A stretch of DNA of 64,000 nucleotides from Pomphorhynchus laevis. Lineage: Eukaryota > Acanthocephala > Palaeacanthocephala > Echinorhynchida > Pomphorhynchidae. Below are positions 23,350-55,536 of this stretch, in pieces; the first letter of the stretch is position 1; every line of letters starts with the position of its first letter. The notes beneath the pieces were generated by a model. That model saw only the letters and a list, made by a program, of their open reading frames with translations. It had not been told where the DNA came from and did no database searches. The position numbers and the translations under genes are program-made. Location: assembly GCA_012934845.2 (NCBI GenBank), contig WNNJ02003702.1, positions 19,467 through 83,466 of the forward strand. Reading direction: 5' to 3'.

Positions 23350-24720
23350 CATATTCTATAAAGCTTAAAAATAAGAAAGCTATAATTAGGCTACCATTAC
23401 CTATAATTGGAAAACATTTTATTTGTCTAAATATAGATGACCCTACTTTTAAATAATTTTGATTTATCAAATTAAGGATTCTAAAAATTCAATTTTATCC
23501 ATATATTTATATTTACTTGATGGTTTAATTTTTGTTAGATATGCATTATAGTTATTATAACATATATGTATATCGTTGTCCGAATATAAGATTAATTAAT
23601 TTTTCTAACACTTCTTTAATATCTGTTAAATCGAGATATGTATAAAGCGTATTGAAATCTAACATATTTATATTCTGAAAATTTATTCCTTTTGCGTGTT
23701 CTAAAAATTCTATTGCAGAATTAATACTAAAATAGTGTTTTATACCAGTATTAATTTCGATTACCTTGCAATATTTTTTAAAATGTGCTTTAATTAGTTT
23801 AAGTAGTTTATTCATAAGAACAGAAAGTGGTTTCAATGTATATTTAAAAGCAACTGCATATGAACTTAAATTTTATTGGATTTTTATTTAATTTTGAATT
23901 CCAATATAATATAGGTATAGTTTTATTATCTGATTCAATTTTTATACCCTTCTTATCCATTATAGAACAACAGTATATCACAATAAAGCCTTTTTGCAAA
24001 TGAAGACAAAGTTATTACTAGCTTTATCAATAGTTGTTATTATTAATTCATATTCTATAAAGCTTAAAAACAAGTCAGCTATAATTGGGCTACTATTACC
24101 ACCCATTGGAACACCTTTTACTTGTCTAAATATAGATGTCCCTACTTTTAAATAATTTTGATTTATCAAAATATTTAAGGATTCTATTAATTCAATTTTA
24201 TCCATATATTTATATTTATTTGATGGTTTAATTTTTGTTAGATAGGCGTTATAATTATTATAACATATATATGTATATCTTTTTCCGAATATAAGGTTAA
24301 TTAATTTTACTAACGCTTCTTTAATATCTACTAAATCTAGATTTGTATAAAGCGTACTAAAATCGTATGTATTTATATTTTGAAAATTTATTCCTTTTGT
24401 CTGTTCTAAAAATTCTTTTGTAGAATTAATACTGAAATAGTGTTTTATACCAGTATTAATTTCGATTACCTTGCAATATTTTTTAAAATGTGCTTTAATT
24501 ACTTTAAAGTATTTTATTCATATAGACAGAAAGTGGTTTTAATGTACATTTAAACGCACTACATATGAACCCAGGTTTTATTGGATTTTTATGTAATTTT
24601 GGATTCCAATATAATATAGGTATAGTTTTATTATCTAATTCAATTTTTATACCCTTTTTATCCATTATAGAACAATGACTTGTAATAATTGTTTCTAATC
24701 TAATATCAATACATTCATAT
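23350..24720 (-). pseudogene. PLE RT palm, partial tandem duplicate
   Basis: From high to low coordinates: SIMDKKGIKIELDNKTIPIL, YWNPKLHKNPIKPGFICS (primer-grip/template region), then IFRQVKGVPMGGNSSPIIAD (24150-24090), which is the PLE motif B, followed by LFLSFIEYE. At about 23960 the sequence returns to the MDKKGIKIE start and repeats to 23350, where the motif B region is degraded. This is a direct duplication of about 650 bp. The catalytic YxDD region is not readable. Confidence 0.72.
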
Positions 24721-37876: not shown

Positions 37877-37912
37877 TGATTTTCGGACATGGTGATTGAA
37901 ATCACCATGTCC
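37877..37912. repeat. 17-bp-arm palindrome at the satellite start
   Basis: TTTCGGACATGGTGATT and its exact reverse complement are separated by two bases. The second arm forms the start of the first satellite unit. Confidence 0.85.
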
Positions 37913-40391
37913 GAAACGACCAGTGTGTACCTCATTCTACTGATTAGTGTTGCGGGTACTCATCATTTCGATGCTGAAGTGGTCGTCTAGAAGTGACATG
38001 GTGATTGAAAGTCGTGAATCGAAGTCCAGTCTATCAAGCAACATTATTTAGTATAAATGCCGTATTTCGTAAGAAATCCTGGACCATTGTTTACTCAGCA
38101 CATCTGTGCACTACTATTATACATGCCGTATCCATTAAGGATCCAACGAGTGCAACGACAATTCAGCAACAACCTCTGCCTAGTGTATAAGGATGGTCCA
38201 CACAGCAATTCGATCTGGTAAAGAGCGTAAGCCTCAGTCGATTAAGCAAAGTGTCGGAAACGCCTTTATTCACAATGTCACACAGGCAACCGAAACGACC
38301 AGTGTGTACCTCATTCTACTGATGAGTGTTGCCGGGTACTCATCATTTCGATGCTGAAGTGGTCGTCTAGAAGTGACATGGTGATTGAAAGTCGTGAATC
38401 GAAGTCCAGTCTATCAAGCAACACCATTTAGTATAAATGCCGTATTTCGTAAGAAATCCCGGACCGTTGTTTACTCAGCAGATCTGTGCACTACTATTAT
38501 ACATGCCGTATCCATTAAGGATCCAACGAGTGCAACGACAATTCAGCAACAACCTCTGCCTAGTGTATAAGGATGGTCCGCACAGCAATTCGATCTGGTA
38601 AAGAGCGTAAGCCTCAGTCGATTAAGCAAAGTGTCGGAAACGCCTTTATTCACAATGTCACACAGGCAACCGAAACGACCAGTGTGAACCTTATTCTACT
38701 GATGAGTGTTGCCAGGTACTCATCATTTCGATGCTAAAGTGGTCGTCTAGAAGTGACATGGTGATTGAAAGTCGTGAATCGAAGTCCAGTCTATCAAGCA
38801 ACACCATTTAGTATAAATGCCGTATTTCGTAAGAAATCCTGGACCGTTGTTTACTCAGCACATCTGTGCACTACTATTATACATGCCGTATCCATTAAGG
38901 ATCCAACGAGTGCAGCGACAATTCAGCAACAACCTCTGCCTAGTGTATAAGGATAATCCACACAGCAATTCGATCTGGTAAAGAGCGTAAGCCTCAGTCG
39001 ATTAAGCAAAGTGTCGGAAACGCCTTTATTCACAATGTCACACAGGCAACCGAAACGACCAGTGTGTACCTCATTCTACTGATGAGTGTTGCCGGGTACT
39101 CATCATTTCGATGCTGAAGTGGTCGTCTAGAAGTGACATGGTGATTGAAAGTCGTGAATCGAAGTCCAGTCTATCAAGCAACACCATTTAGTATAAATGC
39201 CGTATTTCGTAAGAAATCCTGGACTGTTGTCTACTCAGCACATTCGTGCATTACTATTATACCTGCCGTATCCATTTAGGATCCAACGAGTGCAGCGACA
39301 ATTCAGCAACAACCTCTGCCTAGTGTTTAAGGATGGTCCGCACAGCAATTCGATCTGGTTAAGAGCGAAAGCCTCAGACAATTAAGCAAAGTGTCGGAAA
39401 CGCCTTTATTCACAATGTCACACAGGCAACCGAAACGACCAGTGTGTACCTCATGCTACTGATGAGTATTGCCGGGTACTCATCATTTCGATGCTGAAGT
39501 GGTCATCTAGAAGTGACATGGTGACTGAAAGTCGTGAATCGAAGTCCAGTCTATCAAGCAACACCATTATTATAAATGCCGTATTTCGTAAGAAATCCTG
39601 GACCGTTGTCTACTCAGCACATTCGTGCATTACTATTATACCTGCCGTATCCATTTAGGATCCAACGAGTGCAGCGACAATTCAGCAACAACCTCTGCCT
39701 AGTGTTTAAGGATGGTCCGCACAGCAATTCGATCTGGTTAAGAGCGAAAGCCTCAGACAATTAAGCAAAGTGTCGGAAACGCCTTTATTCACAATGTCAC
39801 ACAGGCAACCGAAACGACCAGTGTGTACCTCATTCTACTGATGAGTGTTGCCGGGTACTCATCATTTCGATGCTGAAGTGGTCGTCTAGAAGTGACATGG
39901 TGACTGAAAGTCGTGAATCGAAGTCCAGTCTATCAAGCAACACCATTATTATAAATGCCGTATTTCGTAAGAAATCCTGGACCGTTGTCTACTCAGCACA
40001 TTCGTGCATTACTATTATACCTGCCGTATCCATTTAGGATCCAACGAGTGCAGCGACAATTCAGCAACAACCTCTGCCTAGTGTTTAAGGATGGTCCGCA
40101 CAGCAATTCGATCTGGTTAAGAGCGAAAGCCTCAGACAATTAAGCAAAGTGTCGGAAACGCCTTTATTCACAATGTCACACAGGCAACCGAAACGACCAG
40201 TGTGTACCTCATTCTACTGATGAGTGTTGCCGGGTACTCATCATTTCGATGCTGAAGTGGTCGTCTAGAAGTGACATGGTGACTGAAAATCGTGAATCGA
40301 AGTCCAGTCTATCAAGCAACACCATTATTATAAATGCCGTATTTCGTAAGAAATCCTGGACCGTTGTCTACTCAGCACATTCGTGCATTAC

Positions 40392-40393
<2 letters not shown>
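37905..40393 (+). repeat. 380-bp satellite array, about 7 units
   Basis: Head-to-tail units have periods of 380, 380, 380, 379 and 379 bp, judged from CTGATGAG at 38319, 38699, 39079, 39459, 39838 and 40217. A first, variant unit has CTGATTAG at 37940. Units differ by a few per cent, and the last three share a subtype (ATTCGTGCATTACTATTATA). Each unit shows small open frames, but these are not a recognisable protein and are broken by stops in the full unit. Each carries hammerhead core segments (see findings). The last unit is cut by a (TA)n tract. Diverged copies lie at 43.3-44.6 kb. Confidence 0.95.

Positions 40394-40465
<72 letters not shown>
40394..40465. repeat. (TA)n microsatellite
   Basis: A pure TA dinucleotide run of about 72 bp expanded from the CTATTATA of the last satellite unit. 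Confidence 0.97.
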
Positions 40466-43319: not shown

Positions 43320-44590
43320 ATGCCACTTTAGACATCTGAGTGGGGGAATTTCCCTCGTAAAGGGGGGGAATTCGCTTCATGTCACTATGAGGAGTGACAT
43401 GATCACTTTCGCTCCATTAGAAGTGACATGGAGCATGCAGCTCGTTGATCGAAGCCAGTTTCAATCGGCAACTGCATTGAATACATAACGAATTCCATTC
43501 GGAATCCTGACCGTTGTTTCATTCCGCACTTATATTCTATATGCCGAATGGTATTTCAATCATTTCGATGTTGAAGTGGTCGTCTAGAAGTGACATGGGT
43601 CCTTCAGTTTGTTGATCGAAGCAAATTTCGACACTGATGAGTGTTGCCGAGTACTCCATAATTTCGGAGCTAAATGGTCGTCTAAAAGTAACATGGTGCC
43701 TAAAAGTCGTGAATCAAAGTCCAGTGTATCAAGCATCACTATTTTCTATTATATATAATTTGTTGTTACACATGCTTTGGGGCACCCACCGGTGTACTCA
43801 TAAATAAATCACTATGTTTATATCCTCTGCTGAGCAGATAAGCTAATGTACACAGCGAATGTTCTGGTTCGAGAACGAAAGCCTCAGACGTTTAGGCAAC
43901 GTGTCGAAAATGCCTTCTTTTACTGTCACACAGTCAACCGAAACGACCAGTGGGTACTTCATTCTATCGATGAGCGTTGCCGAGTACTCCATCATTTCGA
44001 TGTTGAAGTGGTCGTCTAGAAGTGACATGGGTCCTTCAGTTTGTTGATCGAAGCAAATTTCGACAATTACATAAAACTATATACAATGGTGTTACTTGAT
44101 AGACTGGACTTCGATTCACGACTTTCAGTCACCATGTCACTTCTAGACGATCACTTATAGACGTCTAGAAGTAGCATGTTGACTGAAAGTCGTGAAATAA
44201 AGTCCAGCCTATCAAGCAACATCATTTTTGATAAATATCGCATTTTGTACTCAGCACATATAATACATATTATACATGCCGTATCCATTTAAAATCTAAA
44301 GAGTGCAGCTACAATTCAGCAACAACCTCTGCCTAGTGTTTAAGGATAGTCCGCACATCAATTCGATCTGGTAAAGAGCGTAAGCATTTTTCAATTATGC
44401 AAAATGCCGGAAACGCCTTCGTTCACAATGTCACACAGTCAACCAAAACGACAAGTGGGTACTTCATTCTACTGATGAGTGTTGCCGAGTACTCCATAAT
44501 TTCGGAGCTAAATGGTCGTCTAAAAGTAACATGGTGCCTAAAAGTCGTGAATCAAAGTCCAGTGTATCAAGCATCACTATTTTCTATTAT
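43320..44590 (+). repeat. Decayed copies of the 380-bp satellite
   Basis: Fragments recognisable by GGTCGTCTAGAAGTGACATG, ACTGATGAGTGTTGCC and GTCGTGAATC are shuffled, with short inversions (44090-44150 is inverted). Two units keep an open frame (43859-44047 and 44397-44645) with the shared peptide YFILLMSVAEYSIIS, read here as satellite translation rather than a gene. Confidence 0.8.
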
Positions 44591-44795
44591 ATATAATTTG
44601 TTGTTACACATGCTTTGGGGCACCCACCGGTGTACTCATAAATAAATCACTATGTTTTCCTCACAAAGAGGCATAAACACCAGGCAGCATTCTATATATC
44701 CTCATCAGACCAAGAAATAGAACTGAAGTATTCTCGCAATATTCAAAGTCGTTAGGTATGCCCAATCATCATATGTATGACGACAAACTTTAAAG

Positions 44796-44835
44796 CGGTA
44801 TCCGCGTTTCGCTTTAACGGAGCTCATCAGTACCG
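44796..44835 (-). ncRNA. Type I hammerhead ribozyme core, copy 1
   Basis: Minus strand, 5' to 3': CGGTA (stem I), CTGATGA, stem II GCT/AGC around CCGTTAA, GAAA (44810-44807), CGCGGA, TACCG (stem I return). The catalytic boxes are intact. The cleavage-site U16.1-C17 has become G-A, so self-cleavage should be weak or lost. Confidence 0.7.
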
Positions 44836-45257
44836 TGACTTTAATAATCATCCATAGGCACCTTAACACACGCTTAAACTTGGTTTAATGCTCGAAAAAC
44901 AGAACTACCTTTAATCTGAATCATCGGAGAGAATTTAGCATATGCTCTGTGCATAGCAGGGCGTATTGCAGTTTAACCATGCATTAGGCACTAAATTCCT
45001 TTAAATAGAAATGCTGTTTTACAAGGACACCTTCAAGTGTACAAATATATAAAATATAATTTGTTGTTACACCTGCCCTGAGACTTCCAATAATGTACTT
45101 ATAAATAAATCATTATGTTTTCCTCGTGAGGAGGCATAAACACCAGGCAGCATTCTATATATCATCATCAGACCAAGAAATAGAACCGAATTATTCTCGC
45201 AATATTCAAAGTAGCTACGTATGCGCAGTCATCATATGTGGTACGACAAACTTCCAC

Positions 45258-45301
45258 AACTGTAGACGCGTTTTGCTCTAACGGAGCTCATCAGTACAGT
45301 T
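45258..45301 (-). ncRNA. Type I hammerhead ribozyme core, copy 2
   Basis: Minus strand, 5' to 3': AACTGTA (stem I, 45301-45295), CTGATGA (45294-45288), stem II GCTC-CGTTA-GAGC, AAAA where GAAA is expected (G12 to A), CGCGTC with cleavage expected after C (45265), then TACAGTT (45264-45258), a perfect 7-bp stem I. Stem III, ACGCGU, is self-complementary, as in hammerheads that work as dimers. G12A predicts low activity for this copy. Confidence 0.75.
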
Positions 45302-45420
45302 ACTTCAATAATGATCCATAGGCACCTTAACACACGCCTAAACAGTGTTTAAAGCTCCAAAAGCAGAACTATCCTTAATCTACACCTACCCTGGGACACC
45401 CAATAGTATACTCATACATT

Positions 45421-55250: not shown

Positions 55251-55536
55251 TTTGTGAATGGTTTTAGGGCCAAACCCAGCCAAAAAACGTTAAAAACGTT
55301 TAAGATTTTGTTATCAATATTTCTTTCGCTAATTGTGGACATTGTCAGGATAAATTATAATTAGCTGGAACACTTATAAATTTTCTTCCAGAAAATTGAA
55401 GAAAATTTATAAGTGTTCCAGCTAATTATAATTTATCCTGACAATGTCCACAATTGGTGGAAGAAATATTGATAACAAAATCTTAAACGTTTTTAACGTT
55501 TTTTTGGCTGGGTTTGGCCCTAAAACCATTTACAAA
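55251..55536. mobile_element. 286-bp nearly perfect palindrome (foldback/MITE)
   Basis: Arms 55251-55388 and 55398-55536 match over about 138 bp with few differences around a 9-bp loop. The outer part reads GGTTTTAGGGCCAAACCCAG. It lies between two copies of a duplicated flank (55060-55215 and 55760-55925) and is absent from the sister copy at 63.2 kb. No ORF. Confidence 0.85.

Follow-up and report, generated by a model that had tools for sequence, protein, structure and literature searches.

A short tandem array in the 64,000-nucleotide stretch of Pomphorhynchus laevis DNA analysed here (the window) is probably a metazoan non-LTR retrozyme in the form of a small and dead array, and its two ribozyme-bearing copies would be old insertions. 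From the comparisons described below, we consider it probable that the family carries dimeric hammerhead ribozymes and is copied by a reverse transcriptase of the Penelope-like element (PLE) type, starting from inside circular or multimeric RNA. Metazoan retrozymes, dimer-type hammerheads and mobilisation by PLEs as a hypothesis are already known; the new element is the manner in which retrozyme arrays end. In the portions of the literature available to us, LINEs and PLEs are named as candidate sources of the enzyme responsible for moving animal retrozymes, on the basis of co-occurrence and shared hammerheads. Two preferred TA-tailed 3′ ends and head-to-head inversions, both seen here, are absent from the description in the accessible part of PMC7229834 (Cervera and de la Pena 2020). 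Neither two-end tails nor head-to-head inversions in retrozymes were found in the titles and abstract openings searched, and no paper combining acanthocephalans with 'hammerhead ribozyme' was found; both searches covered few subscription papers. The array ends provide a structural signature that could be sought in further genomes and put to the test in the PLE in vitro assay already published.

The window array and its two ribozymes

Self-comparison of the window returned two pairs of direct repeats, 44585-44790 vs 45048-45253 (85% identity) and 44798-44917 vs 45262-45381 (86% identity). A sequence-only reading had described 463-bp direct repeats with minus-strand hammerheads; these are present, with a spacing of 463/464 bp and both cores in place. 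Positions in the unit (u) are numbered from the first nucleotide 3′ of the hammerhead cleavage site (u1), so that the window array extends from u348 at its 5′ end to u217 at its 3′ end. Its parts, all on the minus strand, are as follows.

44585..45381, minus: array of about 1.7 retrozyme units, each 463/464 bp (repeat comparison; corresponding to positions 1290-2086 of locus L031)
45382..45417, minus: extra array piece, about u163-197, in the 5′ flank of L031 (limits by eye)
45259..45300, minus: hammerhead copy 2, with stem I ACTGTA/TACAGT, CTGATGA and stem II GCTC/GAGC (from the letters)
45288-45294, minus: CTGATGA core of copy 2 (from the letters)
45266..45271, minus: self-complementary stem III hexamer of copy 2, ACGCGT, with full pairing only to a second copy
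44795..44836, minus: hammerhead copy 1, with stem I CGGTA/TACCG, CTGATGA and GAAA retained (from the letters)
44824-44830, minus: CTGATGA core of copy 1 (from the letters)
44802-44807, minus: ACGCGG, the copy 1 counterpart of the stem III hexamer (from the letters)
45102..45112, minus: start site 1 of the upper unit, about u155-163, ATTTATTTA (AT run; array-end mapping)
about 44638-44650, minus: start site 1, copy closer to the array end
45041..45061, minus: start site 2 of the upper unit, AAATTATATTTTATATATTTG (approximate)
44585..44597, minus: array 3′ end, equal to start site 2, AACAACAAATTATAT, followed by ATAATA and after that unrelated DNA

An internal deletion, spanning about u198-347, apparently split the piece at 45382..45417 from the main array. 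Copy 2 reads, on the minus strand, ACTGTA-CTGATGA-GCTC-CGTTA-GAGC-AAAA-CGCG-TC-TACAGT, its sole gap as a hammerhead being the change of G12 to A (AAAA), with the cleavage dinucleotide UC retained. Copy 1 reads CGGTA-CTGATGA-GCT..AGC-GAAA-CGCG-GA-TACCG; its stem II has 3 bp, the fourth pair being gone, and U16.1 has become G with A at H17, which leaves it without a cleavage site. Inspection of the letters bore out the lesions named by the earlier reading, and since copy 1 lacks U16.1 and copy 2 has lost G12, both window ribozymes should be dead. The assignment to type I hammerheads with a dimer-type stem III was likewise upheld for both copies, and the paired change in stem I is as it had been described, TGTA/TACA in copy 2 and GGTA/TACC in copy 1, an exchange between a U-A and a G-C pair. 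One further genomic copy (L041; 2 of 77 distinct rows) shares the U-A pair seen in copy 2, and this pair therefore looks like a subfamily trait, not one private to copy 2.

Predicted dimer logic of the hammerhead

In its common form, stem III (A-CGCG-U) has 1 bp when a copy stands alone and 6 bp between two copies. For one intact motif, the active two-copy fold was predicted at -28.7 kcal/mol vs -10.1 kcal/mol for each single active fold. The best predicted folds of the same motif were at -30.9 kcal/mol for two copies and -10.9 kcal/mol for the monomer, with CUGAUG predicted to be locked in a hairpin with loop II in the latter. By these models the ribozyme is predicted to act as a dimer, with a full stem III forming only between two copies. 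The satellite hammerhead HHR_Amex1 of axolotl and newt is similar, as it has a 1-bp stem III capped by a palindromic tetraloop, and motifs of its type are weak as monomers and active as dimers, although the axolotl and newt satellites differ from the retrozyme in sequence, repeat length and animal group (PMC7229834, accessible part). The small PLE hammerheads that cleave as dimers likewise have little or no stem III and the dimer logic but are tied to autonomous Penelope-like elements (Lunse 2017, as cited in other papers).

Other hammerheads were seen in the same genome. Loci L048 and L049 (about 483 and 93, reverse complement) hold one with a full 4-bp stem III, ACGG/CCGT, and the loop TATG or TACG, which could act alone judging from its sequence. 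A further family has the stem II GATC/GATC or variants (L001, L002, L003, L007, L008, L009, L018, L022), with a palindromic stem III ACCGGT in L001, L008 and L009/L018.

Preferred 3′ ends and TA tails

The genome (a 249.4-Mb assembly of 3242 contigs) was searched by similarity with the unit, which gave at least 182 matches (38 of 1372 candidates scored), and 30 loci of this search were picked by likeness to the window copy. To map array ends, the matches that one natural unit (L034) gave in the loci were chained. Of 44 readable 3′ ends, 17 fell in u154-165 and 12 in u211-222, so that two 12-nt windows together contained 29, a clustering equalled in 0 of 5000 uniform random sets; L011 and L012, which have a common 3′ flank, are each counted among these ends. 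The 5′ ends were ragged, the best two windows containing 5 and 4 of 45. Measured from the cleavage site, the preferred 3′ ends lie approximately 155-163 and 205-220 nt downstream (start sites 1 and 2), at the AT runs ATTTATTTA and AAATTATATTTTATATATTT; out of seven AT runs in the unit, these two gather 17 and 15 ends and the others 0-2. An AC-rich hairpin, ACACCAUUGUGU, can be folded between the two sites, and the 80-nt stretches around them were no stabler than shuffled sequence in two retrozyme copies (z -1.0 and -0.2).

Patterns requiring TA detected 114 tailed ends at site 1 and 71 at site 2 genome-wide (controls 0), and among the similarity-selected arrays (TA)n of at least 12 nt was present at 9/42 3′ junctions vs 2/44 5′ junctions. 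We read 40 of the 71 site-2 tails, in list order and skipping known arrays and a few others (C495, C1512), which is not a random sample, and 20 of the 114 site-1 tails, the first in the list minus contig-end ones (C250, C339). Retrozyme sequence of at least 32 nt precedes 59 of these 60 tails; the remaining one, preceded by a 30-41-nt piece, was read as a 5′-truncated retrozyme piece (u181-220) adjoining a PLE in opposite orientation (L109/L131). Comparison of target sites at array ends gave short common words only, without consistent duplication; target-site duplications of metazoan non-LTR retrozymes, when present, exceed 4 bp in the sources as far as they were accessible. The preferred 3′ ends, the ragged 5′ ends, the TA tails and the dispersal over many contigs point to reverse transcription as the way in which the arrays arose.

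Template and head-to-head inversions

Upstream tracing of 40 tails (20 per site, those of site 2 being 20 of the 40 read, with L109, which starts at u181, and C449, C841 and C874 left out) revealed that 33 cross the cleavage junction and that none begins at u1. The remaining seven start at about u48-55 (L136, L138, L149) or u116-125 (L152, L158, L169, L170), the starts of L138 and L149 having been placed with the aid of the earlier tail reading. Some of these seven adjoin inverted pieces and there are just two start places in the unit; the 5′ starts may thus not be wholly random. The array ends therefore bear on the question of the template: because a linear cleaved monomer would yield starts at u1, and 0/40 traced insertions begin at the ribozyme cut, linear cleaved RNA is presumably not the usual template, which would instead be a ligated circle or an uncleaved multimer. 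The divergence of units, 4.1% within and 6.7% between loci (55 units), is compatible with both.

An inverted retrozyme fragment stands head to head with the array at 12 of the 42 5′ ends of arrays, and an adjoining same-strand fragment is present at none. The 12 correspond to 8 distinct junctions, because each member of an inverted pair enters the count. The corresponding counts at array 3′ ends are 5/42 for an inverted fragment and 1/42 for one in the same orientation. In L032 and in L016, whose pair has a wider gap and is outside the 12, each outer end of the head-to-head pair lies at one of the two start sites. Inversions at 5′ ends can also be produced by twin priming of the L1 type.

Penelope-like elements in the same genome

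A fragment of a PLE in the window was used as the query for a search of the same genome, in which 150 of 2308 candidates were scored.

One PLE family (L065) has a 796-codon frame and a 351-bp pseudo-LTR. Of the 14 fetched 3′ regions of this family, five end after AATAAACAGAT or a variant and five, like L065 itself, end approximately 32-35 nt further on, after TCAGAA or a variant, while L078, L080 and L081 were without a match and L071 continued into element sequence; AT-rich DNA lies 3′ of most of the ends. In a second family, for which four copies only were informative on this point, the end follows ACAACAAT in L066 and L083 and lies about 29 nt further on in L085 and L087; L084, L088, L089 and L090 gave no information and L086 had its end elsewhere. 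Two PLE families of this genome thus have alternative 3′ ends approximately 29-35 nt apart, in AT-rich DNA, and inverted copies are present at the PLE loci L065, L067 and L068. As far as the accessible parts of the two reports go, reverse transcription by the Anolis PLE (Poseidon) begins at two positions within the RNA, AT-rich DNA is preferred, and both DNA strands are cut and extended (Frangieh 2024, PMC11167929), and the Penelope of Adineta has an optional 31-bp tail and a head-to-head inverted pseudo-LTR (PMC3846280).

The retrozyme resembles PLEs, as described in those parts of PMC11167929 and PMC3846280, in that a hammerhead precedes two alternative 3′ ends, targets are rich in AT, copies stand in tandem and inverted 5′ pieces lie head to head. 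Unlike PLEs, it encodes neither reverse transcriptase nor endonuclease. The start sites also differ in position, being about 155 and 207 nt past the cut in the retrozyme and, by eye, about 65-108 nt past GAAA in the two PLE families here, and the PLE tails here consist of AT-rich DNA after the end and not of the long (TA)n of many retrozyme tails. No PLE with a retrozyme tail was present among the tails read (40/71 at site 2, 20/114 at site 1). The PLE segment ACACGAATGT resembles ACACCATTGT between the two retrozyme sites (8/10), the only such place in the unit, which we regard as a lead only.

Locus L131 (500-3300) contains a divergent, minus-strand PLE that has its own hammerhead-like motif, CTGACGA..GGCGATAGCC..GAAACG, and also another short TA-tailed element, ending GCAGAAGGTAGT. 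In L042 (875-2850), a retrozyme array is apparently inserted within a PLE related to positions 23978-24517 of the window.

Proposed mechanism and alternative explanations

The explanation that we favour, and hold to be probable on the pattern of array ends, is a retrozyme with dimeric hammerheads that is copied by a PLE-type reverse transcriptase. Tandem transcripts would cleave themselves once two neighbouring hammerheads pair, and a host ligase would close the monomers, or uncleaved multimers would serve. The PLE reverse transcriptase would nick AT-rich DNA and begin copying at the two internal sites flanking the AC-rich hairpin, and by passing more than once round or along the template it would write new tandem arrays. 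The window copies would be old insertions, each of whose ribozymes has lost one essential nucleotide. A counterpoint to PLE-type copying is that no AT run in the unit exceeds one of the two sites in length and that the other site is one of the two next longest runs, so that base pairing with AT-rich ends may have done the priming instead. A broader proposition, which we put forward tentatively and judge slightly short of an even chance, is that metazoan retrozymes in general are free-standing pseudo-LTR replicons, the PLE enzyme starting at either site, passing the ribozyme junction and writing arrays; if true, the two-end tail of PLEs would be the missing link between retrozymes and their helper enzyme.

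The strongest competitor, which we nevertheless find rather unlikely, is that a LINE-type reverse transcriptase copies the retrozyme, the AT-rich nicked end annealing to AT runs of the RNA and priming internally. That both preferred sites are AT runs (ATTTATTTA, AAATTATATTTTATATATTT) and that many tails are (TA)n would be expected from such priming, and it is generally known that twin priming in LINEs also makes inverted 5′ pieces. However, the AT run at u417-425, equal in length to site 1, has one end and the run at u258-265 has none, both outer ends of the head-to-head pairs in L032 and L016 lie at one of the two sites, and in a PLE family here the two-end tails lie in AT-rich DNA that has no long TA runs.

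An origin of the arrays as leftover pseudo-LTRs of one particular PLE family, in place of an independent retrozyme, is improbable. The pseudo-LTRs of PLEs do bear a hammerhead or an apparent remnant of one, plus start sites, and the retrozyme unit resembles a free-standing pseudo-LTR. PLE fragments also occur in 11 of 42 array loci, and in four of these (L003, L035, L051, L054) at least one runs in the same direction as the array. These same-orientation pieces are short or broken, though, and both of those examined start in mid-frame and not with a pseudo-LTR followed by the start of the frame: counted on the L066 frame, that of L035, directly at the array 3′ end, starts at residue 256 (residue 426 on the L065 frame) and that of L051 at residue 275; the other same-orientation fragments are short or distant. 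Arrays moreover reach about 20 units (C616), and the unit had no match better than E 0.03 to four PLE regions, pseudo-LTRs included.

Still less credible is a tandem satellite that grew as DNA, through unequal exchange, and carries the hammerhead along as a passenger. The long arrays C616, C47 and C3154 appear locally amplified, as such growth would have it, yet the preferred 3′ and ragged 5′ ends, the TA tails and the scattering over many contigs speak against it, as does the higher conservation of the motif core than of the rest of the unit (see below). The earlier label of a satellite leaves out the dispersal and the way in which the arrays end. A chance likeness to a hammerhead in AT-rich repeats, to which the unmet Rfam gathering scores and the thin covariation (see below) would be congenial, has practically nothing in its favour beside 743 intact motifs in the genome and a core retained in 59 of 81 distinct motifs.

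Conservation and composition of the family

These motifs were counted with the pattern CTGATGAGCTCNNNNNGAGCGAAACGCGTHTAC, which requires the core, stem II, the stem III hexamer and a cleavable UH and leaves the 5′ strand of stem I free; it matched 743 times (352 + 391), and the reversed-pattern control 0 times. The 81 distinct motifs come from 162 places. A6, U7, A9, A13, A14 and A15.1 are invariant across them, and 62 of the 81 have the hexamer ACGCGT. Across 55 full units, chosen without a motif requirement yet from loci found via the motif or the window copy, the core columns are 98.7% conserved vs 94.4% elsewhere in the unit. The exact 27-column motif is intact in 35 of these units, a level that 6% of other windows of the same length reach. 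Given the number of intact motifs and the intact core in most distinct ones, the family as a whole is not decayed, and the description 'decayed retrozyme-type satellite' holds in this respect for the two window copies and not for the family. The search for other copies with both GAAA and UH, which the sequence-only reading had named as a check, thus found hundreds in the genome. An exact match to one intact-motif pattern was not found in viral contigs.

The arrays have repeat periods mostly of 462-465 and 515-516 bp. One natural unit has a GC content of 0.379 and, read as a circle, a longest ATG frame of 48 codons; it is without a long reading frame, and no reverse transcriptase or GIY-YIG endonuclease frame was found in it. 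As a measure of self-pairing of the unit RNA, which is high in metazoan non-LTR retrozymes, five natural units gave circular-fold z values of -3.8, -2.6, -2.2, -1.3 and -0.85 (30 shuffles each). A type I hammerhead per unit, a GC content below 50% and the lack of an encoded protein are shared with metazoan non-LTR retrozymes, which the family fits by its sequence, with units longer than published. According to the accessible part of PMC7229834, published units have approximately 170-400 nt, in contrast to 463/464 or 515/516 here, and the retrozyme here further differs from the published metazoan ones in its dimer-type stem III, in an apparent invertebrate.

Loci L023-L030 (G000:C3154:45881-54101) represent a 515/516-bp subfamily, whose additional 52 nt resemble, by eye, a duplicate of the segment lying between start sites 1 and 2. 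Several ribozymes of this subfamily have CCTG in place of CGCG in stem III.

Rfam scores and covariation

At the gathering cut-off, Rfam gave 0 matches in the whole window, so that the hit above threshold for hammerhead models that had been proposed as a check did not appear. With E up to 10, model RF02275 scored copy 2 at 19.2 bits (E 5.4), the gathering score being 52. The top RF02275 score genome-wide was 30.8 bits, at a locus from a different hammerhead family, and the retrozyme family's best in the genome-wide list was 25.1 bits (L005).

Covariation was assessed on 77 of the 81 distinct motifs, four being omitted. Paired cells amounted to 94.0% vs 93.7% after shuffling (reached in 47/500), the covariation score was 0.062 vs 0.053 (4/500), changes on both sides of a pair numbered 2 vs 1.1 (160/500) and double-change cells numbered 3 (62/500). 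The compensatory change noticed earlier is real, but its statistical support is thin over these copies. Covariation is weak, as expected since the copies are alike, and our case does not rest on it.

Rfam microRNA matches at 44082-44230 and 55321-55465 were rejected as inverted repeats under their own cut-offs. The latter is a long AT-rich inverted repeat, a transposon-like hairpin that is the source of sub-threshold microRNA matches.

Neighbouring repeats and other features

Positions 37911-40398 are taken up by another tandem family, with a 380-bp repeat (6.6 copies, 97%), and inverted and direct pieces of it at 43418-44600 adjoin the retrozyme array. Considered as a hammerhead, the repeat was rejected: it has CTGATGAG, but within a TGATGAGT/ACTCATCA hairpin and with no GAAA in place (by eye). 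The 380-bp family may move like the retrozyme. An exact 187-bp duplication (43633-43819 and 44471-44657, 838 bp apart) spans the junction of this family with the retrozyme 3′ end. A protein search placed one further feature in the window.

333-1622, minus: forkhead protein

On several contigs, COX1-like fragments with stops and frame breaks, glycine/valine-rich by eye (L061-L064), are probably nuclear copies of mitochondrial DNA.
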